NCBI RefSeq assembly: GCF_004210375.1
Contig: NC_134834.1
Span: 91,640,170-91,704,169, forward strand
DNA length: 64,000 nt
Reading direction: 5' to 3'
Source of the DNA: Tachypleus tridentatus
Lineage: Eukaryota > Arthropoda > Merostomata > Xiphosura > Limulidae
The stretch's first letter is position 1. The number at the start of each line of letters is the position of its first letter. Made by a program: the position numbers and the translations under genes. Shown piece by piece: positions 6,147 to 64,000 of the stretch. The notes below the pieces were generated by a model. The model saw nothing but the letters and a program-made list of their open reading frames with translations, searched no databases and was not told where the DNA came from.

Positions 6147-7050
6147 TCCTTTGTATCCAAATTATCCGTTCTCATTTCTTATGTGTGTGATGCTAGTGGA
6201 TTTTTTTATCTATTTCTAGTCATTTTCAGTTTAGAAAAATTATATAACTTACTGTATTATTCTTTCATTCTAGTGGTTAAAATATACAATTCAATTAGTG
6301 TCGTGTTAATATATATATAACGAAGGTGAATTAGACGTAAGTATTCAGATTATTAGTAATTTGTTTTTGACAGAAGATGTCACGTAAAAGACATATGTAT
6401 TGCACAGAGAATCTTAACCAGTTATAATTATTTATGGACATTTAGGTTGAGATATATCAGTGTCAAAAACAAATTACGTTTATGATTGATTGTTAAAAAT
6501 TGGCTTTCTTTCGTAAAGCTTTCCACAACTTTGGAAACTAATATATATGTCTTTCAAATCATTTACTGTGTATATCATAAAAGTAAGTTTCAAGTAATGA
6601 TATCTCAGAAAGAAACGTTTATTCTGTGGTGGATATGATTTACGTACATTCATTTTCCATAATGATGGCATTATTATGAGTCTGAATATCATAATTTTAT
6701 AAAATAATATTTAAATTATTCGTCATATTAAAGAGTTACTATGAAGTGTGATAACATATTTCTGGTATTCTACATTTCACTGACTTTTCCATGAAATAGG
6801 TATAACCCACTATGGCCCACAAAATAACAGGAGATTCAATTAAACTCAATTCTCTGGATTTTGGCAGAAATTTAAGCAAAAAAATAAAGTGAGCACAATT
6901 GAAACTAGAGCAATGAAGTATTTTTTATACAATACAAAACAGCAAGTGTGTTAATAGAAGAAAGTGCTATTATGGAATATCTTGGAAATATCCATATCAG
7001 TATAAGAGATTATAATAAATACATTACCATGATGTTATTTCTCTCATGAT
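6147..7050. other. No gene recognised; left border of the array
   Basis: AT-rich sequence between the retroelement and the first array copy. Clear similarity to the other copies begins only near 7050; weak resemblance may reach back to about 6880. The 70-codon minus-strand open frame at 6692-6480 shows no motif. Confidence 0.45.
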
Positions 7051-7057
7051 CACCGCC

Positions 7058-7169
7058 AATGGATCATCAGGACTTGCAACACCAGAAACCGGGTTTTTTA
7101 TACCTGGGGTGAGCAGAGCACAGATAGCCCATTAGATTGCCTTGTGCTTAATTACAAATAAACAAACAA
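7058..7169 (+). mobile_element. SINE-2 fragment (tRNA-Val-like family)
   Basis: Head remnant GACTTGCAACACCAGAAACC is followed by the 3' body GCACAGATAGCCCATT and tail TGTGCTTAATTACAAATAAA. Shared with 21241-21352 and 42810-42924, so it predates the duplications. Confidence 0.75.
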
Positions 7170-9610
7170 TACTTGTGACTCATGTGATACATAGGCCATT
7201 GCCACAATTAGTTATTCCAATAAAAAGCAAAGGATGATGTAATCTCAAGGTTTCACTGTTACTGTAACTCTTTGTCCATATTTACATAATATACTGTACT
7301 TTTCAGTAATTTTTTCCAAGAGAAAGCTCACTTGATATCGTACGTGAATGATCCAAAAAGTCATTCAATAGCTCAGACACTAATGGTCACAATGTCCTTA
7401 AAACCGATTTATCGAATTACTAGCACTCATTCTCATTTAATCTAAAAGTTGATATTCTAGACTTTACATTGACTAATACCAGCCATCTGAACTGTGTAGT
7501 AATCGAGTATTTTATCGAATCTTCTTTAGGTGGTTTCTCAGTGAAACTGATTTTAACAGCTTGGAGAGTAAGATTCACAGTGCCTTTTAAATCCATTAAC
7601 GTTGCAAATAACAAGTCACCATCATTTTGTAATAACCAAACATTTTACCATGAAATACCACTTTATTGTCCAGAGAGCAAGGAATGTCTTTTACTTTCAG
7701 TCATTTAATCTTAAAACAAATGATCGTCATAAATGCTCGTCCAGTAATTGAATCACAATTATATTGATCACGATGCTATTATCTGCATCTTGGCAGCTAT
7801 CTTACACCTTCCCTTCAGGAGATAGCTGAACAGATGCGTCTCTCTCTTTTCGTCATCATATAATTTTAGAGGAGACAAAACAGTTCTTCCACTATCCTCT
7901 GACTTATCAGGTCTCAATATTTTACTCTAGATCTAAGCAGAACAAAAAAGGTTATTCAGTCTTAGCTTGTCAACATGTTAATACCGTAACCCATTATTTG
8001 ATGGACCAAGTTGCTTTCACAGTGTTGCATTTTATATCTTCTTCTTAATACTGTATTATGTGAACCTAGATAGTATTCTGGTATGTGTAGTTTCACATGA
8101 GATGTGGCTAAGAAAACTGTTAAGTTGATTTCATTCTACTTACTATTATTCTGTGTTCTTTTAATGCAGTGGTATCTGATCTGCTCGTGAGAGATATGTC
8201 TGTAATTTGTTTTAAAACCTAGAGAACAGTTTCCTCAAATAATAAGTAAACTAACACCTCAAAGTTTTAAACTCTCTTATGTTTTAATGAGAATGATCAG
8301 TTGTCACCACTTGATTTAAGGTAAACTCAGTATTACATAATAACTAAGTAATATTCAGATTAATTTTCATCATATCGTGAAATAATGACTGTTTCAGTAT
8401 GCTTAAAGCTTTGTATAATGTCTTTCGTTGATTACTTAGTCACAAACTTGAGACAAACCTGATTCATCTTCACAACACGGCATCTATTGATCCCCTATTA
8501 TACTGTAATACTCAAGGAGGAATTAGAGACACAAAGAATACAAAATTGAATTGATGTCAGACAAAATACTTCTTACTTTAACCATAAATGTATTTCATGC
8601 ACCTGTCTTTATATATTAAAATGTACAATAATCAGTGGTGAAGAACTACAATTGGTCATTTAAAAGTTTCCAGTTTATCAGTTTTCAGTCAACCTGAGAT
8701 TTTGCATAATTTATATTAAAATTAAGATGTAAAAAGATTACAGGATTTGATATTAATTAGATATCAAGTACTAATGATTATTTGTAATAATTTTCTAGTG
8801 AGATTCTTTCTTTAAATAGGTTATTGTTATCGGTGGCTTTTAGTGCTAAGCCACACAATGGGTTATCTGCACTTTGTCCACTGCGGAAAATTGAACCCCA
8901 GCATCGTAAGTCTGGAAATTCGTCGCTAACTCCCCGGCCTTAATTTAGTTTTGGGCCAGATAACATGTATATATTAAGTTAAAACTAAGGTGTGTTTTCT
9001 TTGAATTTCTTTTAAAGCTATTCAGAGGATAACTGACCTATACGACCCAAATTTAAAAGTGAAAGACGAGAGGGAAGACAGCTACTGTACGCTACCTACT
9101 GCCTAAACATAGGTGACTGTAATCGGATAGTTGGATTTGATCACAATTGTTATAATTCACACACAGCCTAAAAGTGTGAAGCACAAATCATGGAATCTTG
9201 GATCCACTGGGCCACGTTGGGCCTTACAACTAAAGAGCTTTTATTATGAAAGCTACGTTAAAGGTATGCTTAGTATTTTTTATTCGCAATATAACGAGTG
9301 TTTATATAAGACACTATTTTTAGTAATTTAAACATTATTAATTCATTGTGCAGCTTTGTGCGACATTCAAAAAACAAACAAGCATATCTTATTTCAACAC
9401 TTAAAGCTTTAAGATAACAGATAGGCGTAAAGACAAGATTATTCTGTCCAACTTATTCAAATTGATTTTTAACAGAAAAAAAAGTCGCTTAAAAATCAAA
9501 ACCATTTACTATACGTATTTTGAATAAGGATATGGAATTTGTCCATTTTTCTTGAACACTTGTTAAGAAAATGACCAGTTTTTAAAAATATAACATGACT
9601 TACTCAAATT
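7170..9610. other. Noncoding array sequence, no gene recognised
   Basis: Repeated at 21353-23816, and its start also at 42925-43540. Opposing short open frames (7469-7708 plus, 7614-7420 minus) are disrupted in the other copies and carry no known motif, so I do not call them genes. Confidence 0.5.
8831..8941 (-). mobile_element. SINE-2 copy, reverse orientation
   Basis: Reverse-complement tRNA-like head (CAGCATCGTAAGTCTG region) and body GGGTTATCTGCACTTTGTC. Sister copies: 23032-23137, and a stub at 48567-48605 where copy IV begins inside the element. Confidence 0.65.
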
Positions 9611-9738
9611 AGTGCCCTCGCTAGTACAGCGGTAAATCTATGGATTTACAACGCTAAAATCAAGGGGGTTCGATTCCCCTTGGTGTGCTTAGCAGATAGC
9701 CCGATGAGGCCTTACTATAAGAAAACACACACACGCAC
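9611..9738 (+). mobile_element. SINE-3 (tRNA-derived)
   Basis: Head GCCCTCGCTAGTACAGCGGT, loop GGATTTACAACGCTAAAA, B box GGGTTCGATTCCCC, body AGCAGATAGCCCGATGAGG and tail AAGAAAACACACAC. The head looks like a tRNA-Val(UAC). Sister copies at 23817 and 49249. Confidence 0.85.
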
Positions 9739-9822
9739 ATTATTTAGTTTCTTTAATACATTATTATATAGCTGAAGCAAATGTTTGAAACGATTTCTTT
9801 TTTATTTAAATTGCATAGTTTA

Positions 9823-10098
9823 GTGTGGAAGTTTGAGACCAACTGGTTAGGAAGCTCTACTCGCAATTTAAGGGTCGCAGGTTCGAATCCTCTTCACACC
9901 AAACATGCTTGCCCTTTTACGCTTGGCGTTTTAATGTTTCGGTCGACCCCACTATTCGTTGGTAAAAGAGTAGCCCAAGAGTTGGCGTTGGATGATGATG
10001 ACTAACTGCCCTCCCTCAAGTCTTTTACTGCTCAATTAGGAATGGCTGGCGCAGACAGCTCTCATGTAGCATTGCGCAAAATTCGAAACAAACCTAAC
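9823..10098 (+). mobile_element. SINE-1, near full length
   Basis: Diverged head (GGTTAGGAAGCTCTACTCGC), B box GGTTCGAATCC, body AAAAGAGTAGCCCAAGAGTT and tail ATTCGAAACAAACC. A 74-codon open frame across it is a by-product. Sister copies: 24025 and 49457. Confidence 0.85.
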
Positions 10099-10160
10099 TA
10101 AATTGCGAGTGTTCATTCAGTCGCTATTTGCAAAATTATTTAATTCAGGTTTCATTTGAA

Positions 10161-10253
10161 TTTGTTTGTTTCAAGTTAAGCACAAAATTACACATTAGGC
10201 TATCTGCGCAATGCCAACAACTGATATCAAAACTCGGTTTCTAGTTTTCTAAG
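10161..10253 (-). mobile_element. SINE-2 3' fragment, reverse
   Basis: Reverse-complement tail (TTTGTTTGTTTCAAGTTAAG) and body (GGCTATCTGCGC), cut off within the tRNA head. Sister copies at 24366 and 49796. Confidence 0.6.
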
Positions 10254-10962
10254 TCTTTGGGGGAAGGGGGCATTTCATATGAAGGATATTCACGTGTAGA
10301 ATAGTCTCGTTTTCGACTTTATCGATTACTTTGAACACACTGAACATTAAAACTGTTTCTCAGGCCTTGATCTTAAGAATAGAACGTTCTTTTAATTTAA
10401 GCGTTCTTCCATTTTTCTGACAGTCAATCTGGCAAAAGCGCCCTCACGTGTTGGTCAGTAGGATTCATAGATAGCATGTGACTGTTGAGAAGTTCTGAAT
10501 TCTCAAGAAAGGTCTAAACACATATTGGTAGTGAACTTGTGGAAAAAAAACTTTGATTATGGTGTTTAGTATTTTATTCAAAATTTATGACATCACCACC
10601 TTAGTAATGTTTCTTGATAATGAGTTAAGTTTTAAACAGATTTTATTCTGAATTCACAGGAACTCACGATACGATGTGCACATGACAGGATACATTTCAC
10701 AAAGTTTTCATTGAAGTGAAGTGGAAGAAATTGTTAAAGTGGATGTACACTCTGGTGAAGATTAGCTTATGATAACGACCTACACTATATGGTTGTTGTT
10801 CATGTCAAAAGAAGTTAGAACATGCTAGTGTTGGCGTTTACAGGTGAACTTAATGTTAACATGTTTGTTGTTCGAATATTTTACAAATTTCACTACTTGA
10901 TTTTCATTTTTAAATATTATAAATATGTCATCAACATAGACAGGGTGAATATGTGGTGTGAG

Positions 10963-11040
10963 GTCCGTAAATAGTGTGAAGTCAGTAAATAGTGTGAAGT
11001 CAATAAATTGTGTGAAGTCAGTAAATAGTGTGATGTCAGT
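10963..11040. repeat. 18-bp minisatellite, four units
   Basis: Four tandem 18-bp units (GTCAGTAAATAGTGTGAA and variants) start at 10963, 10981, 10999 and 11017, with a partial fifth. Copy IV at 50590-50605 has only a remnant of one unit. The repeat keeps a minus-strand frame open (TDFTLF repeated), which is coincidental. Confidence 0.9.
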
Positions 11041-12400
11041 AAAACAATCCCTCGACCAACTATTCTCATGAAAGGACATGATACTAAACTCTAATAGACG
11101 GTTCATAATATTCAGCATTGTACTGAAAAACTGAGTGTTTCGTAGAAAAATCCATCAGTTATCTGAAATATTATTTACGTAGTTCGTTAACAAATTCCTG
11201 GTACATCTAGGAAAAAGCTAATGAACAGACATCCAATATGTAGACTGTTTATTGGATGAAATTTTCACTATTTGCTTATCTTAGACACGATAAATTGATC
11301 ATAGTTTGAGATGCAGTGACGTAGCTAGTTCATATTCAACATAGGTTGTAGATTACGAATTAGGAGTGCTTCCTTTTTCAGTATCCATTCACCTTTCCTT
11401 CAGTCTATTATTGTGAAGTGTTCACTGTTTAGTTTTTCTCACACTCATTCATCAGACGGTTGTAAATTTTAGAATTATTTAAAGAGTTGTCATGACTATG
11501 CTCCTTTATTTTACTCCGGCACTGTATTCCAAACTATCAACTCATCGTCCCTGTGTTGGACGAAAAGTAAAAAATCTGTCCATCAAGAAAGTGTCAATAT
11601 CTTCTAAAATAGAAAACATTAATCATACTAACAGTTCCAAAGGAATCCTAGACTTCAACTCGCTTCTCAAAGATTAAGAAAAAGAAATAGGGGAGGGATT
11701 ATGATCCCTTTTCACTTAACATAAATATTTACACTTGAAACGTTTTATTACTTCTGTTACAGTTCTGTCTGTAATGAGATAACAATAATTATTGAAAGTT
11801 TGGCTCATTTTAAGTTTAGCGCAAAGCTATACGAGGGCTATTTGAATTAAATGTGGTCCCAATCAAAGTATATTCAAAGTAACTGGTAAAGCCAAGAGTT
11901 GGCAATGATCGGTGTTGAAAATCTGACTTTCCTATACTTTATCACCTTTAAATTAGGCGAAATTCAAAATAAGCTCAACAAAACTTGTCACTTGTAACTC
12001 AATAACAATAATCTTTATGGGTAAGTTTGGATTCGTGAAAAAACCAACAACAAAACCTTATGTTACTGATAAAAAATAAACAAGAATTAAGAAAACTTCT
12101 AGTTTAAACAATAAGAAATACGCCTGTTTAATTAAACACTGTCATCTTGCTCTCTCAATATTATAAATTGTGTATTCCAGGTGTGGTTATTACTTTATAC
12201 CTCCTTCGACACTTGACTTGAACAATGCCACAACTTCGGCTTTAGGTTACCGGGTAAAATCGCATGTTGTTGTTGTTTTAGTGTAGTTTTGATTTCTAAT
12301 TTCTAACATAGTAACAATAATTAAGAACCGTGAGTTACAGTTATTTCAACATTTAGATTATGATGTCTATACGTCACTTCCTGTCTCGCGCACAACGCTT

Positions 12401-12664
12401 TTGTTTTTACTTTCGCACAAAGCTTTTCGAGAGCTATCTGCACTAGCCGTCCCTAATTTAGCAGTGTAAGACTGGAAGGCAGCTACTCATCACCACCCAC
12501 CGCCAACTCTTGGACTACTCTTTTACCAACAAATATTGGGATGGACCGTCACATTATACGCTCTAACGGCTAGAACGGCGAGCATGTTTGGTGCGACCGG
12601 GATTCGAACCCGCAACCCTCGGATTACGAGTCGAACGCCTTAACACACTTAGCCATGCCGGGCC
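12401..12664 (-). mobile_element. SINE-1, near full length
   Basis: Complete reverse-complement head ending GCCATGCCGGGCC, anticodon-loop region GGATTACGAGTCGAACG, and a full body with tail toward 12401. It lies about 470 bp beyond the 3' end of A1. Sister copy at 53091-53355. Confidence 0.9.
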
Positions 12665-13133
12665 GCGAAAAACGAACCCACACAAACCAGATAAAAGTTG
12701 TAAAAGTAATAATATTGTCGAATATTTCCCCCAGAATAAGAATTCCTGAAAAGGTAAGCGTCTTAATAAATTCAAACAAAATTATACCAACTAGAAATAA
12801 AAATTTATTACTTCAATGCACAGTCCCTGTAATTTTACACATCTTCTGAAAACTCAAAATACAATAAGAGAAGATGCTTTTATAAGAGGTAGTATCTATA
12901 TTTTACTTTATTGTACACTTACTTAGAATTTCTTATGCAAATTATACTGAAGATTTGCATTTCTTTCATATATTTTTAATAGTTGCTCACAAAAATATTT
13001 CAATGCCATTAGCGCTTAAAATGAAAATTAGAAAAAACAAAATCATTATTAATATTTCTAAATATCAAGTGTAGTATATGAAAAATACGCAATTTTATTA
13101 TTGTGAAAATTAATAAATTATACGCACGATTTT

Positions 13134-14090
13134 TTATTTTAAAATGTCTGGCCAGAATTCAGGAATTTCAGTTCCTTTAAATTTCTCAATACATTTTCTT
13201 TTCAGTCGTTCTCTTTGTTTTTGGGTAAAGTGGTTTTTCCAATCACCGACAATACCTTTTCTAACAAAGGTAAATTCCGACTGTGGTTTAAAGTTAATGC
13301 TTTTCATGTACTTAAGAACGTGCTTTAGTCCTTCTGGAATGTTTTCGTTATCTATTTCTTCATCACTATGTACTGATCCAAAGAAGCTCCCAAAGTGTTT
13401 GTTGGTAGATTTCTTCATGTACTCAACAGAAGTCTGACGAATTATGTTCTCCATCATTTGTTCATCCTTCACTAACATGTCTTCGTACTCTTGACCCAGA
13501 AACTTAGCGATTTTTAAAACAGCAGCTCTGGTGTCAGCTTTTATTTTCTCATAGACAAGAAAGAGCACATTAGGATCATTTCTGTGTTCATACCAGGACA
13601 GAAGATGGTCGAAGTAGTCCCCAAATTCAGTTTCGCCGTTGATGAAAATCTCAAAAAAGTCTTCAAATGTTCCATCAGAGTATTGATATACTGGCAATGT
13701 TCTGCTGTGGTGAAAAAGAGAAACGCAGCAGTCGAAGGGATTCCTTGTTACGTAGATGTATTTGGCTTGAAGAGAATAAGGCTGCATATTAAACGGAAGG
13801 TGAGTTTTGATAGCTCCAGGTCGAGGCATTGTTTCTACAATACCAGTTCCTGTAAGTTCCATAAAAGGACTTAGCCTTTGAAACTCTTCAAAACTCTCTG
13901 GTGGTAGCCCTCTTTTTAAAATGTTGATTACAATATGTTGTACCCAAGTTGTTCCACATTTAGGAAAAGTCACAATAAACACATCATTATCCTTTGGTTT
14001 ATAACGGAGAGAATCTCGAAGGCATTTTGGTGAAAACGCTTTGGGAATTATCAGTCCTTCGATTTCTTGGTAGTCGGGACCCTTAGGCAT
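13134..14090 (-). CDS. Cytosolic sulfotransferase A1 (intact)
   Basis: Transfers sulfate from PAPS to a hydroxyl or amine acceptor in the cytosol; the substrate cannot be inferred. The protein has 318 residues, slightly longer than the roughly 295 of vertebrate SULT1, with no signal peptide or membrane segment. The PAPS 5'-phosphosulfate loop is FPKCGTTW (42-49, Lys44). The catalytic His is in KTHLP (His97). The 3'-phosphate site is YVTRNPFDCCVS (113-124, Arg116, Ser124), plus RKGIVGDWK (277-285). The dimer motif region KNHFTQKQRE (285-294) has Gln where KTVE has Val. The frame is a single exon. An AG (14113-14112) after CATTCCT could be a 5'UTR acceptor. AATAAA signals overlap the stop and lie at 13099-13094. 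A2 is its near-identical duplicate. Confidence 0.95.
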   Translation of the reverse strand: MPKGPDYQEIEGLIIPKAFSPKCLRDSLRYKPKDNDVFIVTFPKCGTTWVQHIVINILKRGLPPESFEEFQRLSPFMELTGTGIVETMPRPGAIKTHLPFNMQPYSLQAKYIYVTRNPFDCCVSLFHHSRTLPVYQYSDGTFEDFFEIFINGETEFGDYFDHLLSWYEHRNDPNVLFLVYEKIKADTRAAVLKIAKFLGQEYEDMLVKDEQMMENIIRQTSVEYMKKSTNKHFGSFFGSVHSDEEIDNENIPEGLKHVLKYMKSINFKPQSEFTFVRKGIVGDWKNHFTQKQRERLKRKCIEKFKGTEIPEFWPDILK

Positions 14091-14277
14091 TGTCTTTTAT
14101 TTCGAACGAACCTGAGGAATGCATATTGTATTTTTATTAATAAAGGCAAAACGATCAGAATTTTTTCTGATAAAAATATAATAAAACATTTTTGAAATCG
14201 GTATGTATTCTAGGATTATAAAATTGTTCTTCGTTTTAATGAAGAAACATAATTGTCTGAAATTAAGAACAAAACAA

Positions 14278-14372
14278 CACAATGGGTTATTTGTGCTCTG
14301 TCCGCCGGAAGTATCGAAATCTGGTGCCTAGCGTTGTAAGTTCGTGACTTTCTGCTGTGATACTGGCGGTGG
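14278..14372 (-). mobile_element. SINE-2 fragment, reverse
   Basis: GGGTTATTTGTGCTCTGTCC body and reverse tRNA-like head, starting about 190 bp upstream of the A1 ATG. Sister copy at 54974-55068 upstream of A2. Confidence 0.6.
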
Positions 14373-14550
14373 GGGTAGGGGGAAGATTTTTAAACATTAG
14401 TATTTTAATTATTTCCACGCCTTACATGTTCAATTTTCGACCCATTTACATAACAATAATATCAAGACAAATATTATTTTGCAGCTGAAGCTATTTAATT
14501 TTCGAACTCAAAATGCATTTTCTGTTGAACCACTTATTATTCTGTGGAAC

Positions 14551-14776
14551 TTGTTTGTTTTTTAGCTTGCACAAAGCTACACGAGAGCTATCTGCGCTAG
14601 CCGTCAATATTTTAGCAGTGTGTGAGCAGGGAGGACAAATAGCTAGTTATCACCACCCACCGCCAACTCTTTGGCTACTCTTTTACACGAACTGTCACAT
14701 TATAACACCCTCATGTTTGAATGGGTGAGCATGATTGATGTGACAAGGATTCGAACCCTTGACTACCTGGCCATCT
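14551..14776 (-). mobile_element. SINE-1, reverse
   Basis: Tail TTGTTTGTTTTTTAGC, body CACCACCCACCGCCAACTC and head GATTCGAACCCTTGAC. The sister copies at 26127 and 57203 share a deletion of the middle of the body that this copy does not have, so it keeps the older structure. Confidence 0.85.
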
Positions 14777-14911
14777 GTGAAACTTACTCGATTACTCTTA
14801 ATGGAGATTTGTGCATCAAAGAATAATGCTGACATCTCTTCTTTTGATAATGTATATACGATGTACCATAGCAGTTTATATAATGCCCGTTATTTGGGCT
14901 TTATGCAGTCC

Positions 14912-15155
14912 CAAACTGTTGGGACTCGATTCGTAATTTGAGGGTGGCGGGTTCGAGTCCCTAACACACCAAACTTGCTTGGCCTTTCAGCCGTAGGGGC
15001 ATTGTAATTTGATGGTCAATCCCACTATTCATTGGTAAATTGGCGGTGGGTGTTGATGACTAGCTGTCTTCCATCTAGTCTTACACTGCTAAATTAGGAC
15101 GGCTAACGCAGATAGCCCTGGTTTAGTTTTACGAGAAATTTGAAAACAAACAAAC
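14912..15155 (+). mobile_element. SINE-1
   Basis: Head GACTCGATTCGTAATTTGAG, B box GGGTTCGAGTCCC, tail GAAAACAAACAAAC. It lacks a short piece of the body (AAAGAGTAGCC) present in the sisters at 26433 and 57515. Confidence 0.85.
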
Positions 15156-15199
15156 GCCAGCAATAAAATCTGATCGCAAAGAAATAATTGATTCCTATT

Positions 15200-15325
15200 G
15201 CTGGAATTCCCAGTTTCACTGCGATATATCTGCGGACTTTCAACATTAGAATCCGGGTTTCAACACCCGTGGTTGGCAAAGCACAGATAACCCATTTTGC
15301 ATTTTTGTGTTTAATTACAAACAAC
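15200..15325 (+). mobile_element. SINE-2
   Basis: tRNA-like head with CTGCGGACTTTCAAC loop, B box GGTTTCAACACCCG, tail TGTTTAATTACAAAC. Sisters at 26740 and 57819. Confidence 0.8.
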
Positions 15326-16289
15326 ATCTAACGTGATTACAACAATTAATTAGAACAGACAAAAAAGTTTGAAATTTATTAATCTAGGCTATTGTTTGGG
15401 AAACTTTACGGACTATCTTGTTTATACATAATTATTTTAGAGTCGAGTTTCAGACTGTATTTCAATAACTTAACTAAAAATATATTAGGCCTTACCTTAC
15501 CTTTAACTTTACAGAGAACTTCAATTTCAGTGTTCTTCATACGACGCCTTTTACTCTTATCAACGAGGTCGAACTATCATAAGAACCTGTAAGCATATTT
15601 ATTCAAGATAAATCACATGATTGGCTTTCCTGATTTATTTTACTACTTGGGCGTAGGCGAAAATGCTATATATCAGCCTCTTCAGTTTCAAGATTTCACT
15701 TATCTGTTTCTTTGGCAAGTTTCCAAACGTTCCCCACGTGACAAATTGCTGGGAGAAGCTTTTTTGTTTATTAGTTAATCACGTACAGCAAAGAAAAACA
15801 CATAAAGATATTCCAATTATGGTTTTAATTTTACGTATGCACTCGTCAAATCCTTGGTTGCAACTGATGTTCAAGTTTGTAATTGTTAGTTAAAACGTCA
15901 TTGCAAAGTAAGAGAAACGTAAAATTTCTGCCTGTGATTGTTAAAACAAACGATGCCGTTTCTTTGAGAAATTCTTCGAGTTTCAGCAAACTTATAAAAG
16001 CTAAGATATGTGAACTTGACGAAACAACATATATGTGTGTGTGAACATTTTTCCAAACAACTCTCAGTATTTAGGGATATTGAAACCACAAGTTCTTCCA
16101 TTAAAGAAATTACTTAAGTCAACATGTGATGGTCTGTATTAAAGCCGTCTGTGTTACAGTAGTTTGAAAATGTTTTTCCTGTTTACTTATGAAAGCTTTT
16201 ATTGACCATTTCCACGTCACCAGACACGCTCGTTCTTTAAACCAGTGGGGCATTATCACTTGACACAAAATATCATTTTTCTTTTGAAA
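15326..16289. other. Three-copy array sequence; possible upstream region of gene A
   Basis: Recurs at 26870-27921 and 57946-59280. The minus strand carries a donor-like AAAG/GTAAGGTAAGG at about 15501-15490, 1.4 kb upstream of the A1 ATG, so a noncoding first exon of A could end here; this is inference. Short plus-strand open frames (15392, 15663) are not preserved between copies. Confidence 0.3.
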
Positions 16290-16559
16290 AGTTTGTTTGT
16301 TTGTTTTTGAATTTCACATAAAGCTACTCAAGAACAATCTATGCTAACCGTCCCTAATTTAACAGTGTAAGACAAGAGGGAAGGTAGCTAGTTATCATCA
16401 CCCACCGCCAACTCTTGGACTACTCTTTTACCCTTTACCAGCGAATTGTGCGACTGGCCGTAAAATTATAACGTTCTCACGGCTGAAAGGGCGAGCATGT
16501 TTGGTGCGACCTGGATTCCAACCTGCGACCCTCAGATTACGATTCGCACGTCTTAACAT
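16290..16559 (-). mobile_element. SINE-1, reverse
   Basis: Tail GTTTGTTTGTTTGTTTTTG, full body and degraded head (GATTACGATTCGCACG). Contains a small CCCTTTA duplication in TTTACCCTTTACCAGCG. Sisters at 27922 and 59280. Confidence 0.85.
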
Positions 16560-16892
16560 ATGGGAAGCCTCAAGGTCCTTGAAATAAAACGAGAATATTG
16601 AAAAGACACAAATCGCTTAATTTTATAACTTGAATAACTTCTTCTTTTATCGAGGTAAATTAAGCCGTTACTTAATTAATGCAAATTTTTACGACAGAAA
16701 TTTTGAAACCATTTGAAAGTGTTAGAAAAAATTAAATATTTAATGCTTGTGTGCACTTTCAAAAAAATAAGAAGGAAATTGTTCAAATTGATCATAATTT
16801 ATGGAATTGTGAATTTCAGGCCAATATGAATTTCTTAATATCTACAAATAATATTTGTTCTGTATAAATTAACAGCTTTACACACTTTAGAT

Positions 16893-17033
16893 GGTTCGAC
16901 ATGGCCAGGTGGTTAAGGCACTCGACTCGTACTTTGAGGATGGTGGATTCAAATCCCCATCGCACCAAACATGATCGCCCTTTCAGCCGTAGAGACGTTA
17001 TAAAGTGACGTTATATAGCTGCCTTCCCTCTAG
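16893..17033 (+). mobile_element. SINE-1, truncated by a rearrangement junction
   Basis: Head GGCCAGGTGGTTAAGGCAC and first part of the body, then a jump to CTGCCTTCCCTCTAG. The SINE ends exactly where sulfotransferase sequence begins (17034). Sisters at 28552 and 59909 continue into the 3' flank of gene B instead. Confidence 0.85.
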
Positions 17034-17520
17034 CTGCAGTGCTAAATATTGCCAAGTTTCTAGGTCAGGAAAATTTAGATATGCTTGAAAATGACACTTA
17101 CGTGTTGAAGAAAATATTATATGAAACAAGTGTAGAATACATGAGAAAACACATCAACGAACAGTTTTGTCACAAATAAAATAAAGCAGAAAAACTGAAA
17201 CATCAAAATATACGTGTTCATGAAGCAATAAAGTTACTTCAGGAATATGTTGAAGTTAATGAAGGCACCACAACTAATGGTATGTAACTAGGTTTAAAAG
17301 GAATCTTAATTACATACAATGCTAATTTCATATTGTTTTTTGCTAAACTACATCGTACATTTTAAACTGTAAATCAAGTGTACAAATATATATATTGTAC
17401 ATCAAAATAAAAAACGAGTAATAATATTAATATATCTTCTTTGTTTGTCGTGTGTTGTTGGTTCTCATGCTTTAGTATCAAAAACACGTATAGGGTCACA
17501 TGCATCACGAAGTATGTGCT
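17034..17520 (+). pseudogene. Sulfotransferase pseudogene fragment P0 plus 3' flank
   Basis: 17034-17274 matches gene B from the middle of the frame: GCTAAATATTGCC corresponds to LNIAKFLGQ, followed by NDTYVLKKILYETSVEYM. It has an in-frame stop after CHK and a deleted NGF. Sequence then jumps from KAP directly to the B-type 3' flank (17279-17520 resembles the reverse complement of 30290-30050), so the C-terminal codons with the RKGxxGDW site are gone. The N-terminal half, including the PAPS loop, is absent. Orientation is opposite to B1 and B2 and the same as P1 and P2. Confidence 0.85.
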
Positions 17521-17817
17521 AGTAAAATCTAGGAGTAATTTTGAAAAAAATATTGGAGTGAAAAGAAGGTGACTCAGAGTGCACAGTATGAAAGGATATA
17601 ATTAGGCTTTTACTGCATGATTTACAATAATAAACGAAAAGTAAATTGCATTGAATTGAACAAAAATAAAGTGAAACAGATTTTAATTGAAAAGAACAAT
17701 AACTTCAGAAACTAAAATGCTTATCAAGTTGGCAAAAGAAAACACAAGAAAAATTTGTTGACAAAATTAAGTCTGACAACTTGCACTATATCTTTAACAA
17801 ATATCCACAGGGGTTTT
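17521..17817. other. No feature recognised
   Basis: AT-rich remainder between the P0 flank and the P-type downstream repeat. P1 and P2 lack the corresponding stretch. Confidence 0.4.
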
Positions 17818-19274: not shown

Positions 19275-19360
19275 TATGGATTTTGAGAACAATCTTCCAG
19301 TAAGAAATCATAGGCAAAATTTTAATTGGCTTAAAAAGTAAGGTGTCATTTGTAAATATT
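19275..19360 (+). repeat. Direct repeat, first member
   Basis: About 85 bp starting ATGGATTTTGAGAACAATC, repeated at 19827-19905 with roughly 10% differences. The same pair occurs at 40842 and 41396. Confidence 0.8.
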
Positions 19361-49734: not shown

Positions 49735-49795
49735 CTAAATTGTGAGCGTTCATTCAGTACCTATTTGCCTATTATGTAATTCAGATTTCATTTGA

Positions 49796-53823: not shown

Positions 53824-54781
53824 TTATTTTAAAATGTCTGGCCAGAATTCAGGAATTTCAGTTCCTTTAAATTTCTCAATACATTTTCTTTTCAGTCGTT
53901 CTCTTTGTTTTTGGGTAAAGTGATTTTTCCAATCACCGACAATACCTTTTCTAACAAAGGTAAATTCCGACTGTGGTTTAAAGTTAATGCTTTTCATGTA
54001 CCTAAGAACGTGCTTTAGTCCTTCTGGAATGTTTTCGTTATCTATCTCTTCATCACTATGTACTGATCCAAAAAAGCTCCCAAAGTGTTTGTTGGTAGAT
54101 TTCTTCATGTACTCAACAGAAGTCTGACGAATTATGTTCTCCATCATTTGTTCATCCTTCACTAACATGTCTTCGTACTCTTGACCCAGAAACTTAGCGA
54201 TTTTTAAAACAGCAGCTCTGGTGTCAGCTTTTATTTTCTCATAGACAAGAAAGAGCACATTAGAATCATTTCTATGTTCATACCAGGACAGAAGATGGTC
54301 GAAGTAGTCCCCAAATTCAGTTTCGCCGTTGATGAAAATCTCAAAAAAGTCTTCAAATGTTCCATCAGAGTATTGATATATTGGCAATGTTCTGCTGTGG
54401 TGAAAAAGAGAAACGCAGCAGTCGAAGGGATTCCTTGTTACGTAGATGTATTTGGCTTGAAGAGAATAAGGCTGCATATTAAACGGAAGGTGAGTTTTGA
54501 TAGCTCCAGGTCGAGGCATTGTTTCTACAATACCAGTTCCTGTAAGTTCCATAAAAGGACTTAGCCTTTGAAACTCTTCAAAACTCTCTGGTGGTAGCCC
54601 TCTTTTTTAAAATGTTGATTACAATATGTTGTACCCAAGTTGTTCCACATTTAGGAAAAGTCACAATAAACACATCATTATCCTTTGGTTTATAACGGAG
54701 AGAATCTCGAAGGCATTTTGGTGAAAACGCTTTGGGAATTATCAGTCCTTCGACTTCTTGGTAGTCGGGACCCTTAGGCAT
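53824..54781 (-). CDS. Sulfotransferase A2 (near-identical to A1, one frameshift)
   Basis: Same 318-residue design as A1 with four substitutions visible (Ile10Val, Val134Ile, Pro173Ser, Lys260Arg). As given, a T-run of six (54603-54608) instead of the five in A1 (13913-13917) adds one base and breaks the frame after ILK near residue 59. The downstream part, including KTHLP, the RNPFD site and RKGIVGDWK, stays open from 54552. The single homopolymer change may be a sequencing error; otherwise this is a very recent pseudogene. The acceptor-like AG and AATAAA signals of A1 are preserved. Confidence 0.88.
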
Positions 54782-55275: not shown

Positions 55276-55320
55276 AAAATGGAGTAAATGAAAAAATATC
55301 ATAATAACATGTATTTGACT

Positions 55321-55575: not shown

Positions 55576-56485
55576 ACGAATCTATCTGAAGAATTTTAAC
55601 GTCGTAAACTCGTACAACAATCGTATTATTAAAAAAAACTAAAAAAAAACGTACATCGTAAGAAAGTAAGATAAATTTAAAATCTTAACAGATCCAAGCT
55701 ATATAATAAAATAAGAAGAAAAATTGAAAGATAATTAAAATACGCTCATTTATGAGAGAACGGTGGCTTAAGTGTAAACACTAAGCTTGTGTTTAACCCT
55801 AATTTCAATGAAAAAGTACTGCCAGTCCATAAACTCGTCAAAGACGTCGTTTACCGTTCGTTCTCAAAGCATTAATTTGTTCCACGTTATTTAGTATTGA
55901 TAACCATTCGAATAATAGAAATCAACGTTGTTCTTTGCTGATAATAAATTATTCGATTCCAGGACTAACGTTAGCGAGAGATTACTTACCTTAAAATAAT
56001 AATACCGACTACTGATCACGTTTAAAGTTTACTTTAGATTTAGTTTCATTATAAATCTCAAACTTCCCTCCTTCCTCATACACTTACGCGCGAAAAAAAA
56101 CAGATTCAAACACATATACAAAGTTAAACTGGAGTTAAAACCGTTTAATCCTTAAAAGATGCTATTAAGATTCCATAAGATATTTTGAAAAGACGTGAAA
56201 AGGTAAATAAATAATTTGTAAGTAGGTGGCGTTAAAATTACTATGGAAACATTGTGCTATAAAATAACGAAATTTGAAAATTGCCACTGTAATTCTCATA
56301 GCGCGTTATATCGGTTTTAATGCAAACTGGTAATCACACCAAATTTTAAAATAAAACCCATACAATATGATGTTGATCATAAACAATTGAAGGAAGCATT
56401 CTGGTAGGTAAAACTTATAATTGGATTACTGTCCGATAGTCAGAGGATAAAGGGATGTTCATAAATGTTATGCTTCGTATGTGCA
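55576..56485. other. Segment present only in copy IV; no gene recognised
   Basis: AT-rich, with poly-A runs near 55631-55650. No open frame or motif of note. Lies between A2 and the point (56236) where similarity to copy II resumes. Confidence 0.5.
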
Positions 56486-56609
56486 GTTCCCTGTGGCACA
56501 GCGGTGTGCCAGCGGACTTATACCATTAGATTCCAAGTTTCGACACCTGTGATAGTGCAGAACACATCGCCAATTGTGTAGCTTTGTGCTTAATTTCAAA
56601 CAAGAACAA
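56486..56609 (+). mobile_element. SINE-2
   Basis: Same insertion as 25353. Just after it, about 25500-25640 of copy II has no counterpart here. Confidence 0.75.
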
Positions 56610-56869
56610 CAGTGTATCCGACAATAAACAAGTTTTCTGAAATTCAGTAATGTGGGTCGCGAAGATATTTTCACAAGAGTAACATTATATTTTTAGGTAC
56701 ATAATGATACATTTGTTCAGTTCGTCTTCAGGTTAGTGAGGAAAGTTCTTCCTTCTAGATGCGCCGGTCAAATCAAGTAAGATATTTATTATTGTTTTTG
56801 TGAGAGGACTAAAGGCTGCTTCATTTTGATTCATATTGTGTCCAGTTTCTATTTCTTTAACTTTTCGAT

Positions 56870-57144
56870 TGTTTGTTTTTTGGAATTTCGCACAAAGCTA
56901 CTCGAGGACTATCTGTTATAGCCGTCCCTAATTTAGCAGTGTAAGACTAGAGGGAAGGCAGCTAGTTATCACCACCCACCGCCAACTCTTGGGCTACTCT
57001 TTTACCAACGAATAGTGGGATTGACCGCCACTTTATAACGCCCTCACGGCTGGGAGGGAGAGCATGTTTGGCGCGATTCGGGCGCAAACCCGCGACACTC
57101 AGATCACGAAGCGCACGCCTTAACGCGCTAGACCATGCAGGCCC
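56870..57144 (-). mobile_element. SINE-1, GCG-type head
   Basis: Same insertion as 25832. Confidence 0.88.
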
Positions 57145-57202
57145 TTTAACTTTTCGAACTCAAAATGCATTTTCGATAGAACCACTTATTATTCTGTGGA
57201 AC

Positions 57203-57376
57203 TTGTTTGTTTTTTAATTTGCACAAAGCGACACGAGGGCTATCTGCGCTAGCCGTCCTTATTTTAGCACTTTGGCTACTCTTTTACACGAACTGTCACA
57301 TTATAACACCCTCACGGTTGAATGGGTGAGCATGTTTGATGTGACAAAGACTCGAACCCTTGATCACCTGGCCATT
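57203..57376 (-). mobile_element. SINE-1, internally deleted
   Basis: Same insertion and same internal deletion as 26127, linking copies II and IV to the exclusion of copy I. Confidence 0.8.
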
Positions 57377-57514
57377 CCCGATATTTCCTCGAGTACTCTT
57401 GATGGAGATTTGCGCCGCAGATAATAATGTCGACATCTCTTCTTTTGATAACATGTATACGATGCACCATAGCAGTTTATATAATGCCCGTTATTTGGGC
57501 TTCATGCAGTCCCA

Positions 57515-57770
57515 AACTGTCGGGACTCGATTCGTAATTTGAGAGTGGCGGGTTCGAATTCCTATTACACCAAAAATGCTTGGCCTTTCAGCCGTAGGGG
57601 CAATGTAATGTGATGGTCAATCCAACTATTTGTTGGTAAAAGAGTAGCCAAATAATTGGCGGTGGGTGTTGATGACTAGCTGCCTTCCCTCTAGTCTTAC
57701 ACTGTTAAATTAGGAACGGCTAGTGCAGATAGCCCTCGTTTAGCTTAACGAGAAATTGAAAACAAACAAA
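57515..57770 (+). mobile_element. SINE-1
   Basis: Same insertion as 14912 and 26433. Confidence 0.85.
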
Positions 57771-57818
57771 TTTCAATAATAAACTCTGATCGCAAAGTGA
57801 TAATCGATTCCTATTGCT

Positions 57819-57945
57819 GGACTTCCCAGTGTCACGACGGTATATCTGCGGACTTATAACGTTAGAATCCAGGTTTCAACACCCGTGGTTGGCAAAGCAC
57901 AGATAACCCATTTTGTATTTTTCTGTTTCATTACAAATAACAACA
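57819..57945 (+). mobile_element. SINE-2
   Basis: Same insertion as 15200 and 26740. Confidence 0.8.
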
Positions 57946-58045
57946 TCTAACGTGATTACAACAATTAGTTACAAAAACAGTAAAAGTTTGAAATTTATTT
58001 TTCTAGACTAGTGTTTTGGAAACTTTACGGGCTATGTTTTTTATA

Positions 58046-58310
58046 GGCCCGGCATGGCCTAGCGCGTAAAGCGTGCGACTCATAATCCGCGGGTTCGCGC
58101 CCGCGTCGCGCTAAACATGCTTGCCCTCCCAGACGTGGGGGTGTATAAGTGACGGTCAATCCCACTATTCGTTGGTAAAAGAGTAGCCCAAGAGTTGGCG
58201 GTGGGTGGTGATAACTAGCTGCCTTCCCTCTAGTCTTACACTGCTAAATTAGGGACAGCTAGCATAGATAGCCCTCGAGTAGCTTTGTGCGAAATTCCCA
58301 AACAAAATCT
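58046..58310 (+). mobile_element. Young SINE-1 insertion with target site duplication
   Basis: Full element from GGCCCGGCATGGCC to CCCAAACAAAAT, GCG-type head with an intact B box (GGGTTCGCGCCC). The 9-bp TTTTTTATA lies on both sides (58037-58045 and 58311-58319). Copies I (about 15420) and II (about 26955) have the uninterrupted target. Confidence 0.95.
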
Positions 58311-59279
58311 TTTTTTATAGATAATTATTTTAGAGTCGAGTTTCAAATTGTATTTCAATAACTTAACTAAAAATATATTAGGCCTTACCTTACCTTTAAC
58401 TTTACAGAGAACTTCAATTTCAGTGTTCTTCATACGACGCCTTTTACTCTTATCAACGAGGTCGAACTATCATAAGAACCTGTAAGCATGTTTATTCAAG
58501 ATAAATCACGTGATTGTCTTTCCTGATTTATTTTACCACTTGGGCATAGACGAAAATGACTATATATCAGCCTCTTCAGTTTCAAGATTTCACTTATCTG
58601 TTTCTTTGGCAAGTTTCCAAACGTTACCCACGTAAAAAATTTACTTGGAAAAGCTTTGTGTTTATTAGCTAATCAGGTACTGCACAAAAAACACATAAAG
58701 ATATTCCAGTTATCGTTTTTTATTCTACATGTGTGCTCGTCAAATCCTTGGTAGCAACTGATGTTCAGGTTTGTAATTGTTAGTTAAAACGTCATTGCAA
58801 AGTAAGAGAATGGTACAATTTTTGCCTGTGATTGTTAAAACAAACGATGCCGTTTCTTTAAGAAATTCTTCGAGTTTCAGCAAACTTATAAAAGCTAAGA
58901 TATATGAACTTGACAAAACAACATTTATGTGTGTGTGTGAACATTTTCACAAACAACTCTCAGTATTGAGGGATATTAAAACCACAAGTTAAAGAAATTA
59001 CTTAAGACAACATGTGATGGTCTGTATTAAATCCATCTGTGTTACAGTAGTTTGAATTTTTTTTCCTGTTTACTTATGAAAGCTTTTATTGACTAATTAC
59101 GGATTCTAAAATGGTACACTTAACAATTCATTGACTTTAATATTGGGCTTGGAATGGCTTGATAATTAGAGTGTTTGACTTTAAATATATGGGTGCCAAT
59201 CACGTTACTAGACATGCTCGTTCTTTATACCACTGGGGCATTATCACTTGACACACAATACCACTTTTCTTTGGAAAAG

Positions 59280-59540
59280 TTTGTTTGTTTGTGTTTTGAA
59301 TTTCGCACAAAGCTACTCGAGAGCTGTCTGTGCTAGTAGTCCCTAATTTAGCAGTGTAAGACTAGAGGGAAGGCAGCTAGTCATCACCACCAACCACCAA
59401 CTCTTGGACTACTCTTTTACCAACGAATAGCGCGACTGACCATAAAATTATAACGCTTTCACGGCTGAAAGGGCGAGCATATTTGTTGCGACCTGTATTC
59501 GAACCTGCGACCCTCAGAATACGATTCGCACGCCTTAATA
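59280..59540 (-). mobile_element. SINE-1, reverse
   Basis: Same insertion as 16290 and 27922. Confidence 0.85.
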
Positions 59541-59908
59541 TATGGGAAGCCTCAAGGTCCTTGAAATAAGACGAGAATGTTGAAAATACACAAATCGCTT
59601 AATTTTATAACTTGAATAACTTCTTTTATCGAAGTAAATAAAGCCGTTACTTAATTAATCCAAATATTTACAACAGAAATTTTGAAACCATTTTAAAGTG
59701 TTAGGAAAAAATTAGGTATTTAATGCTTGTGTGCCCTTTCGAAAAAATAAAAAGGAAATGGTTCATATTGATTATAATTTATGAAATCATGAATTTCAGG
59801 CCAATATTAATTCCTTAGTATCTTCAGTTCTTATTGTTTTTATAATTTCGAATGAGCTAGTTTGTGGTCATTTGGTCTGTATAAATTAACAGCTTTACAC
59901 ACTGTAGA

Positions 59909-60073
59909 TGGTTCGGAATGGCCAGATGGTTGAGGCACTTGACTCGTAATTTGATGGTAGCGGATTCATATCCCCATCGCACCAAACATGCTCATCCTTT
60001 CAGCCGTAGGGACGTTATATAGTGACGATTAATTCCACTATTCGTTGGTCTTACACTGCTGAATTATGGGCAG
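59909..60073 (+). mobile_element. SINE-1, internally deleted
   Basis: Same insertion and deletion as 28552. Confidence 0.8.
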
Positions 60074-61782
60074 TAATAAAATGTCAGCATCACTTTGTGT
60101 CATTGATTAAACTATTCTGCTTCGAGCTCCTGGTGAGGAAAATTTGTATGTTATCGAATACAATACAAGAACTAATTATACCGCCCATTTAAATTACTTT
60201 TTCAACAATAACTAAGGTTTGCAATGAAAAGTAAAAGGTTACTAAAAGGTCTCAAGTGAATTACTCACGCATGGAACGTTATATTTAAGAAAATATATAA
60301 AGAGGTGCACATGGGAAATTTCTATTTCAACTATATTTCTACAAATATTATCACAGGTTAAAAACATGTAACATGTCATAACTTTACTCCAACGTTTATT
60401 GCTACAATCACGAATTTATCCGTAACCCTGTAAAGTACGACTGTAGCTTTTTTAGTCCTTGTGACAGGTGTCAGTTTTAGGAGTTTCAAACATCATCAAA
60501 TTTATCAAAGTGTTTTGTGGTGTTTATCTTAACTGTGAGTTTTGAGACAGTTTGCTATCAGGGCTACTGAGCATATTTGATATACAACAAAATTTTCATT
60601 TCTTATCCTCTGTCTTAAATTTATCAGAAGAGTTGTTTACTGTTTCTCTTTCGCCAAACCGATAAGCAAGTTTGCTTCTGAAGTTATTGTTTTTTCTAAA
60701 TTAAAGCCGTGTTTATTCGATTCAGTTTATTAATTTACTCTTCGTTTATTGTTGTAAATCCTGCAATAAAGACGTTATTAAATATTTTAGTATTGTACAT
60801 TGTGCATCGTTTCCTCTCCCATCACTTTTTCTAGATGTTTATTTTTGGACTTAGCGCAAAACTACTCGAGGGCTATTTTAAAATTCTGAAACTGTAATAA
60901 ACCCTTTGATCTCTCACAGCGAGCATCATCCATTTTAACTTATAGAAAGAATTTCGTGAAATTGAACAAATAATCAATACAGTAAAAAGTTACTTGAGTT
61001 AAAAAATCTTCAGAGACGTTAAGAAATGGAGAATAATTTGATTTTCGCGCGAAGCTACACGAAGGCTATTTTCGCTAGCCGCCCATAATTTATCAGTTTG
61101 AAGAAGCTGGTGGGAAATCAGCTAGTCATCACCACCTAACTGCTAACTCTTGGTTCACTTTTTTACCAACGTCACTTTATAACGCCTCCACGGCTGGGAA
61201 AGCGACCAAGTTTGGTGCGATCGGGACTAGAACCCGCGATCCTCGGATTACGTATTGAACGCTTTAACACACTTTGCCATGCCGGTCCCCTTTTTTTACG
61301 TAAATTCTTAGTCATATTATTGTTAGCGAATTTTAATTGAATGTGAGTTCATCATTTTTCAATCAGAACCTCACAAACGTACAATGGATTTCTTTTAAAT
61401 AGGTTATATATCTTATATATTGATACCAAAATATAAAAACATAAAACACACAACAGACAAGAAAAATATACTAACATAATTACTCCTTTTTATTTTTATA
61501 AAAAATATGTATTTTTGTATGCTTGATTCACAATTTAAAATCTACGCTGCAGTTTAGCAAAAAGCAATATGAAATTGGCATTATATGTAATTAAGGATCC
61601 TTTCAAACCTAGTTACATTTCATTGGCACAATCTAACATTCGATAATAATAGCATTTTCAAAACAGAGACATACTAAAATTTCATGAGATCTTGTAATCA
61701 TATGATAATTGTAAAATGAAGACTCAATATTATAGCATACCATAATATTACGGTAACCTGCTACATAATGAATATTTTATAC
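60074..61782. other. 3' flank of B2
   Basis: Counterpart of 28716-30440. Near 61395-61415 it lacks about 45 bp (GCCAGTGCGACGTGG region) present at 30040-30080. No other gene recognised. Confidence 0.55.
61041..61289 (-). mobile_element. SINE-1, reverse, diverged
   Basis: Same insertion as 29670. Confidence 0.8.
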
Positions 61783-62771
61783 TTAATTTTCCAGAACGTC
61801 ATAAAACAATTCTGGCCAAATATTAGGGATATCTGTTCCCTTTGTCTTTTCATCAAATTTTGCCTTCAAACGTTTTGACTGATCTTTAGAGAAATGATTC
61901 TTCCAGTCACCCACAACTCCTTTTCGAATAAAAAGGGAATTCTTTCGGCTGTGGTGCCTTCACACGTTCAACATATTCCTGAAGTAACTTTATTGCTTCA
62001 TGAACAGGAAAATTTTGATCTTTTTGTGTTTCTTCTTTATTTTGTTTGTGACAAAACCCATTAAAATGTTTGTTGACGTGATTTCTCATGTATTCTACAC
62101 TTGTCTGATATAGTATTTTCTTCAACAAGTTAGCGTCATTTTCAAGCATATCTAAATATTCCTGCCCTAGAAACTTGGCAATATTTAGCACTGCAGCTTC
62201 ATGATTTGCTTTCATTTCTTCGTAAACAAGGAATAAAACGTTTGGAAGGTTTCGATGTTCATAAAGTGAAAGAAGATGATCGAAGTAGTCTCCCCCAGTC
62301 ATTTTCTCCATTCAGAAAAATTTCAAAATATTCATCAAAGGTTCCCTCTGAGAACTGATAGTTTGGAAACGTTTTAGTGTGATGGTAAAATGAAACGCAA
62401 CAATCTTTTGGATTTCGAATAACTAAGATGTATTTTGCTTTCGCAGAATAAGGTTTTACGTGAAATGGAAGATGCGTTTTGATAGTCCCAGGTCGAAGCA
62501 TGAGTTCAATACCTTCCTTTCCAAAAAAATCTATTATAGGACATCGAAGGTTGTATTCTTTCAGACTTGTCAATGGTTTTCCTTTGGTCAAGATATTGTG
62601 CACAATATATTGTGTCCAAGTTGTTCCAGATTTTGGAAATGTCAGAATAATGATGTCGTCATCTCTTGGCTCGTATTGGATGGCTTCTTCTAAAAATTTG
62701 GGGGTAAAGCCTCCGCCAAGTCTGACATTGTTAACATCTTGATAAGCTGGCATTTTTCTAATTGTGTACAT
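61783..62771 (-). CDS. Sulfotransferase B2 (near-identical to B1, two frameshifts)
   Basis: Same design as B1. The PAPS loop, KTHLP and RNPKDCCVS are intact in the first open part (62771-62259) and the middle in the second (62311-61907). Two +1 homopolymer changes break it: C5 at 62292-62296 (C4 in B1) near residue 160, and A5 at 61930-61934 (A4 in B1) just before the C-terminal RKGVVGDW site. Visible substitutions from B1 are Tyr137Asn, Asp189Asn, Thr193Ala and Phe206Leu. Both shifts may be consensus errors. The upstream splice-like tract of B1 is preserved. Confidence 0.88.
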
Positions 62772-64000
62772 GTTGATTGAACCTTTCTATAAACAGAGTA
62801 AGGAAATAATAAGAACATGTAAATCAGCCGATATAAAGTTCCTGTACAATAACTTATATTTAGACTTCATTTTTACATTGTTTACACGTTTTTAGATAAG
62901 AAATTTCGACAGTGATAATTATTGTACTAAATGGAATTGTAACCACTATAAAATGTATTTGGATGCATACATGCGAAGACCAGGTGAGATCTGTTGGGTA
63001 AATCGTTATAACCAGTGATATATTAAAATAAAATTTGAGTGAACGAACTAGAAGACGTAAAATTTTTATACTTTATATTAATAAAGCTTTAAAAAGAAGT
63101 TGACACAATGTGGATGTTTGAGCACACATATGATAATTAGGCCACTTATGGACAAAAAGGGTACTAGTACGTTCCCTATATAAGAGAATGCAATATAACT
63201 ATGAAAGGACTAATGTGTGGAAAAATAGGCGTGAGTCACAACTTGAAAGTTCAACGCATACCTCAAACAGCTGATGAATAAAACGGGTATTCTGATTATT
63301 GGATACCAAAACTACGCTTCAAGACTATTGTCAAAACACATAGCCATAAAATATAATATGACCGGACCTTGCGACTTAAAGAGCCTTAGAAACCGTCTTA
63401 ATTTAGTATTCACTCTGTTTTAGTATTTGGAGCAGATTCGGATATCTTCAAAACAATGTCTTTTATACTGAACCAGGTCCTTCTTCGTAGGTTTGTCTTC
63501 TTTCTAAAATATATTTCGCGATAAAATTTTTGACAAGATACAACTTTACCCAACACAATTAACTCAACTAAATGTTAAATGTAATTTAACTAAATATTAA
63601 GATACAATAAAGGAAGTAATAAAGGTTTATCAATAGACAATAACTTGTGATTAAAATTGGGAGAGCTATGTAGATTGCTGCTGGAAACTTATTTGTTCAA
63701 ACTTATAAAAAATGAAATGTCTCATTTTTCTTTCGAATTTCTTTTGATTAATATAATTTATTACCGCTAACCATGGAAATCTAGTTTTATTGTTTACAGC
63801 GCAAAAAGTTGTTGTATTCGACACTTGTCATTACCAGAGCGCATTTAAACAATTTTGTAACTTTGCACTTCAAAATAAACAATGAAAAACATTATAACTG
63901 GTGTAATACAAAATATATTTTACATTATTGTTAATATAATTCTCTGTCAATAATATTTTACATTGTTGACTTAGTATACACATTTAGAACTAATACATAT
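62772..64000. other. 5' flank of B2
   Basis: Nearly identical to 31428-32650. Contains the CTATATAAG-like motif near 63177 also seen near 31832. The window ends within the duplication. Confidence 0.6.

Follow-up and report, generated by a model that had tools for sequence, protein, structure and literature searches.

The window analysed here is a stretch of 64,000 nucleotides from the genome of the horseshoe crab Tachypleus tridentatus (NCBI RefSeq assembly GCF_004210375.1, NC_134834.1, here C10, positions 91,640,170 to 91,704,169), which carries a tandem array built from two sulfotransferase genes, called A and B, and a pseudogene in inverted orientation, P. Coagulogen, a family (PF02035) special to horseshoe crabs, confirms the animal group: it has 19 matches in the genome and none in 14 control genomes, of which those named are bacteria, and three exons match the coagulogen structure 1aoc over 51, 48 and 42 residues, two of them differing from it in their first residues only. 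From position 7070 to the right edge, self-BLAST reveals direct repeats that are long and collinear, reaching 5.7 kb at 97.4% identity in the window; they go far beyond chance and confirm that the array is real. They resolve into four incomplete head-to-tail units, with the order of blocks a - gene A (minus strand) - c - gene B (minus) - P (plus) - D - E. To the left of 7070, the self-comparison of the window gives matches to a short interspersed element (SINE) at 2968-3106 and one small inverted repeat, and nothing else.

Flanks of 40 kb on the left and 80 kb on the right were added (184 kb in total, free of runs of N). The whole array comprises five units and spans 86.5 kb (7070-93531 in window coordinates), both ends falling on a unit boundary, and contains gene A twice, gene B three times and P five times, once as a remnant (Table 1). 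An earlier reading, made from the sequence alone without database searches, had described four incomplete copies in a row; this is accurate for the window but not for the whole array, whose fifth unit, u5, lies beyond the window. The comparison of the window with its flanks, which that reading had proposed as a check, shows the tandem array together with its end at 93531. The best-preserved unit, u4, is 25.6 kb long and lacks the first ~1.86 kb of a, which, after subtraction of insertions, gives an ancestral unit of about 26-27 kb. This matches the sequence-only reading in size (~26 kb) and in content (A and B on the minus strand, inverted P on the plus strand). Its claim that each copy lost a different part also holds: gene B and most of P are missing from u1, gene A from u2 and u5, most blocks from u3 and the start of a from u4. 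The units in the row differ from each other by ~1.5-10% in ungapped columns, and do so unevenly.

Table 1. Units, genes and other features of the array, in window coordinates
Feature	Position	Strand	Description
Unit u1	7070-21258		a 7070-11786, A1, c 14540-17010, P remnant, D 17816-18986, E 19117-21258; gene B deleted
Gene A1	13134-14090	minus	intact, single-exon, 318 amino acids; PF00685 E 1.6e-58; 3bfx SULT1C2 E 1.2e-44
P remnant of u1	17032-17272	plus	followed by inverted B-like 3' flank 17276-17771
Unit u2	21259-42827		a 21259-25072, gene A deleted (junction ~25072-25099), c, B2, P2, D, E
Gene B2	30441-31427	minus	intact, single-exon, 328 amino acids; PF00685 E 2.4e-52; 8xgz E 5.7e-42
Pseudogene P2	38055-39087	plus	inverted B-like copy; frameshifts, deletions; 5' flank 37585-37937 matches B upstream sequence, inverted
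Unit u3	42828-48566		reduced: start of a to 43546, P upstream region 43696-46059, P3, D
Pseudogene P3	46529-47562	plus
Unit u4	48575-74138 (window edge 64000)		a 48575-51375, A4, c 56231-60027, B4
Gene A4	53824-54781	minus	coding sequence near-identical to A1; one single-base homopolymer insertion
SINE-containing 274-bp insertion	58036-58309		in u4
Gene B4	61783-62771	minus	near-identical to B2; two single-base homopolymer insertions
Unit u5	74139-93531		beyond the window; gene A deleted; B5 intact

Sulfotransferase genes A and B

Judged by their sequences, A and B are full-length, single-exon sulfotransferases of the cytosolic type. A1 and B2 each form one open frame from start to stop, with PF00685 covering most of the protein in two matched stretches, and the best-scoring solved chains are 3bfx (SULT1C2) for A and 8xgz for B. 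Four conserved segments, PKxGTTW, KTHLPF, RNPxD and RKGxxGDWKNHF, are present in both proteins and were aligned to these two chains; we take them to be the segments that bind 3'-phosphoadenosine 5'-phosphosulfate (PAPS) and carry out catalysis. Full-length genes are intact in three places of the array (A1, B2 and B5). A and B are 53% identical, and the ratio of nonsynonymous to synonymous divergence (dN/dS) between them is 0.087, with dS saturated. From the family, the products of the intact genes are predicted to be PAPS-dependent enzymes that would sulfate small molecules (xenobiotics, phenols, steroids or other signals), and on the same ground a detoxification-type role is plausible.

Similar genes are found elsewhere in the genome. 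Of the eight related loci sampled, one is broken and the other seven each consist of a single open frame of 321-345 codons, counted from stop to stop; in the seven intact relatives the last conserved segment reads RK[GA]xxGDWK or RKGxxGDWK, with variable ends. Genome-wide, PF00685 has at least 147 matches, with pieces counted apart. Among the 33 that exceed 150 bits, 24 have a stop-free open frame of at least 300 codons, and single-exon genes prevail among these strongest matches; the weaker ones include families in several pieces that are multi-exon in look. In a tree of 10 proteins, built without A4, B4, P, the broken relative and the copies on a second contig described below, A is sister to a gene on C1 (67% identity, support 0.99), and B lies deep, 52-58% identical to the others. 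Also on C1, at 92.85-92.98 Mb, sulfotransferase matches repeat at a fixed offset of ~113.75 kb (92851892/92965642, 92862434/92976208), which is either another duplication or another unmerged haplotype. Further clusters in which intact and broken frames are mixed lie at C2:8.61-8.78 Mb, C5:16.65-16.70 Mb and C5:44.07-44.47 Mb.

Pseudogene P

P is related to B, to which it is 88-90% identical, but lies in inverted orientation. It is preceded by inverted B upstream sequence (pieces within 31469-31813 versus 37585-37937), and the remnant in u1 is followed by ~500 bp of inverted B-like 3' flank; on these grounds, retroposition was rejected as the origin of P. The inverted flank is absent from u2, u3, u4 and u5, which have one P|D junction in common, and u1 is thereby set apart from the other units. 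In an alignment made without P4 and P5, two deletions, of 14 bp and 2 bp, are common to P2 and P3; P4 and P5 both contain stops. Between B2 and P2-P5, dS amounts to 0.14-0.19 and dN to 0.074-0.081; by its sequence, P looks older than the array.

Probable founding duplication and subsequent losses

The E|a junction is identical at all three positions where it occurs (21259, 42828 and 74139), and the trinucleotide GGA is found at both outer ends of the array, from 7070 on and just before 93532. The identical junctions and the shared trinucleotide fit one founding tandem duplication at a 3-bp microhomology. The duplicated segment of ~26-27 kb would have carried A, B and an already diverging inverted duplicate of B, namely P. 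Later units would have arisen by unequal crossing-over between the repeats, and ectopic gene conversion would have overwritten stretches of one unit with those of another.

Gene A was lost twice, independently, by two different deletions. The sequence of u2 leaves a at the equivalent of position 10865 of u1 and resumes at the equivalent of 56231 of u4, with ~26 bp in between, and that of u5 leaves a at the equivalent of 10047 of u1 and resumes at the equivalent of 26493 of u2. Both ends of the u5 deletion lie inside SINE copies; a simple SINE-SINE recombination was considered for this loss and set aside as not demonstrated, since the copies are out of register. Two more junctions mark the reduction of u3. 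Unlike u2 and u4, units u3 and u5 contain a 391-bp segment before P. The SINE-containing insertion of u4 is absent from u1 and u2, and in u2 its flanking BLAST pieces share 9 bp, as a target-site duplication would produce. The sequence-only reading had proposed that junctions, shared lesions and SINE presence would give a relative order of events; the junctions are indeed usable, but no single simple order emerges, because the blocks give conflicting trees.

Mosaic similarity between units

The similarity between units changes along their length. Identity between A1 and A4 is 98-100% within the coding region but falls to 88-90% in some flanking parts, with synonymous changes at 4 of 191 sites versus changes at 59 of 885 sites in the adjacent flank (binomial p 0.004, the edges of the tract having been chosen after looking). 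In E, u1 and u2 are 99.6-100% identical across ~1.2 kb, and their longest shared run covers 46 polymorphic sites (permutation p 0.0005). Pair tests of shared runs in five blocks, some of them overlapping, gave an uncorrected p below 0.05 in 16 of 31 cases; the other 15 did not reach this level.

Trees were built for seven blocks, all of which are reported here (200 bootstraps, support in %). The left part of c groups u2 with u5 (100), the right part of c and block D group u2 with u4 (95 and 96), and block a groups u4 with u5 (90). Both P and the region upstream of it separate u3 and u5 from u2 and u4 (100 in each case), and E separates u1 and u2 from u4 and u5 (98). Since the block trees conflict with good support, we infer that ectopic conversion or recombination has been rewriting the copies, an uneven mutation rate being also possible. 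Tracts that resemble each other more than their surroundings do, beyond what protein constraint would impose, are the mark of gene conversion and were found here; unequal crossing-over could account for part of them.

Second contig, frameshifts and alternative explanations

The search with gene B also matched C10:96.72-96.77 Mb, in reverse order. This second array fills one contig of 56,263 bp between two gaps of 500 N (C10:96.72-96.78 Mb), ~5 Mb from the window. Of this contig, 38.7 kb corresponds to window positions 4895-43546, reversed, at 98.96% identity, an overlap that takes in 2.2 kb to the left of the array and contains 286 substitutions in 38,590 columns (0.74%). It carries u1 and u2 in tandem and in the same order, followed by an extra u2-like unit, u2b, which looks like a distinct unit, because it differs by 0.33% from u2 of the window and by 0.68% from u2 of its own contig. 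No other long copy of the left 7 kb of the window was found among the 40 candidates scored out of 3728. Most likely, on the sequence comparison, the second contig is the other haplotype, misplaced by scaffolding. The assembly comprises 2,167,478,450 bases in 205 contigs; its size relative to other assemblies was considered as proof of unmerged haplotypes and dropped, given a k-mer estimate of 2.22 Gb for T. tridentatus (PMC7011531).

A gap-bounded contig that is 99% identical to the window and looks like a misplaced haplotype, in a group where duplicate heterozygous contigs have been reported for the sister species (PMC7210998), raises the question whether the tandem copies themselves are an artefact of assembly, being alternative haplotypes or misjoined contigs with one unit per chromosome. 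We consider this very improbable: the 184 kb around the window are uninterrupted by N, the units differ from each other by ~1.5-10%, unevenly, with different deletions and inconsistent offsets, against 0.74% between the two contigs, and u1 and u2 stand in tandem on the second contig independently. The outcome that would have undone the earlier reading, only one unit per chromosome, finds no support in the contigs, where the probable other haplotype likewise shows several units in a row. Quite unlikely, too, is a true inverted segmental duplication at 96.7 Mb, which would give the genome two such loci. In its favour are the anchoring of the second contig in the scaffold, its extra u2-like unit, which makes it more than a plain copy, and an assembly size of 2.17 Gb, not obviously inflated against the k-mer estimate; however, the second array coincides exactly with a single small gap-bounded contig, the neighbouring sequence on both sides shows no match longer than 300 bp to the window region, the divergence of the contig resembles the heterozygosity of 0.8% reported for Carcinoscorpius (PMC7210998), and other assemblies of T. 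tridentatus amount to 1.72 and 1.94 Gb (PMC7815833, Table 1) and 2.06 Gb.

The two contigs also bear on the frameshifts of A4 and B4. All are single-base insertions in homopolymers, which here are indistinguishable from errors of the consensus. On the second contig, the counterpart of A1 has two single-base deletions, while the single-base indels in the two B copies number one and three, respectively; both B copies lack one base of a GGGG run, the same run in which B4 has an extra base. Between window positions 14895 and 28894 (14 kb), 17 substitutions but 30 single-base indels separate the two contigs, an unusual ratio that would correspond to roughly one consensus error per kb in each sequence; the whole overlap has 85 such indels for its 286 substitutions. 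Within the window contig, u2, u4 and u5 show an unremarkable 41 private single-base indels versus 288 private substitutions. The frameshifts of A4 and B4 may be genuine or may be products of the consensus, and they lend little weight to decay.

That the locus is simply decaying, its genes losing function copy by copy with nothing to maintain them, we regard as unlikely. Such decay would account for the presence of P in all units, for the loss of A from u2 and u5 and of B from u1, for the reduction of u3 and for the frameshifts; it would also fit the GGGG-run deletion shared by the B copies of the second contig and the two deletions in its A1 counterpart, the more so as the seven intact relatives indicate that consensus errors are not everywhere and as the ratio of indels to substitutions within the window contig is ordinary. 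Yet A1, B2 and B5 are intact, the low dN/dS between A and B points the same way, albeit with saturated dS, and the insertions in A4 and B4 are of the very type for which the 14-kb comparison points to the consensus, one base gained in B4 and one lost on the second contig in the same GGGG run being what a badly called run would give. The term "decaying", applied to the array by the earlier reading, is therefore apt in part: P is old and its copies have lesions in common, and two separate deletions removed gene A, but three genes are intact, the copies are partly homogenised and an extra u2-like unit exists.

Repeats in and around the array

The ~260-bp SINE is abundant, with ~20 copies in the window (e.g. 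12399-12643, 25832-26106 and 59285-59538), and has, by its look, what we take to be a tRNA-like head; scans of the window with Rfam (at the gathering threshold) and for tRNAs gave no match. Its 29-base core has no match in viral contigs and none in prokaryote contigs. One partial copy, at 2967-3109, is the source of 43 of the 47 matches listed for the left 7 kb of the window. An 84-base unit occurs in two tandem copies at 51467-51635, between a and gene A of u4, and a 57-base tandem repeat of more than 20 copies, open in several frames, lies at L009:471-1776 (C10:91600640-91601945). Around the array there are several diverged copies of an element with open frames (L009 ~5750-9730 and L019/L020, window coordinates 132854-137085), presumably a non-long terminal repeat (non-LTR) retrotransposon, and two copies, 91% alike, of a 1.8-kb element (L016:1207-2980 and L019:2811-4573), one of which has a frame that we take to be a mariner-like transposase.

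Conclusions and comparison with known systems

The reading that we consider highly probable is that of a tandem segmental duplication founded by a segment of ~26-27 kb with A, B and P, whose units were multiplied and altered by crossing-over and conversion, and which undergoes birth-and-death turnover rather than simple decay. Five homologous units stand head to tail at one locus, and the intact genes A1, B2 and B5 are found together with the broken P and with units from which A or B was lost separately. Several points weigh against this reading. The array is known from assembled contigs, the synonymous deficit of gene A rests on 4 changes, and the permutation tests assume even mutation rates; moreover, the GGGG-run deletion that the second contig has in both of its B copies behaves like a real lesion, and A4 and B4 may truly be null, a state that would speak for decay. 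A more far-reaching version is conceivable but doubtful, namely that the array is live and polymorphic in copy number, that conversion and selection keep the coding regions of A and B nearly uniform while the surrounding units decay, and that dosage is adjusted by swapping trimmed units, within a lineage-specific, largely intronless family.

The word sulfotransferase gave no hit in the main text of the horseshoe crab genome papers searched, including PMC7210998 and PMC7011531 (the supplements being outside the search), and no published account of such a locus was found in titles and the first parts of abstracts for chelicerate, horseshoe crab, spider or intronless sulfotransferases. The 86 kb show how a tandem locus grows, is trimmed and is overwritten, with the breakpoints of the founder, two losses of gene A, an older inverted duplicate and uneven similarity all visible, and this history of units may be useful as teaching and testing material. 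It also calls for caution: in this assembly, an apparent frameshift lesion may reflect an error of the consensus, and an apparent second locus an unmerged haplotype.

With the cytosolic SULT1/SULT2-like proteins (PF00685), A and B share the full-length domain and the four conserved segments. The genes of the array are single-exon, which vertebrate SULT genes are not known to be. Clusters of P450, GST and UGT genes involved in detoxification are multigene families that evolve by birth and death with gene conversion, and no qualitative difference from them was found: tandem units, intact and dead members, independent losses and mosaic similarity are common to both. The lineage-specific tandem gene clusters reported for horseshoe crabs (PMC7210998) represent the same kind of local expansion; compared with these, the history of individual units, the inverted pseudogene and the mosaic similarity are visible here. 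The locus is a genuine birth-and-death tandem cluster of sulfotransferase genes, of an already known, ordinary kind.

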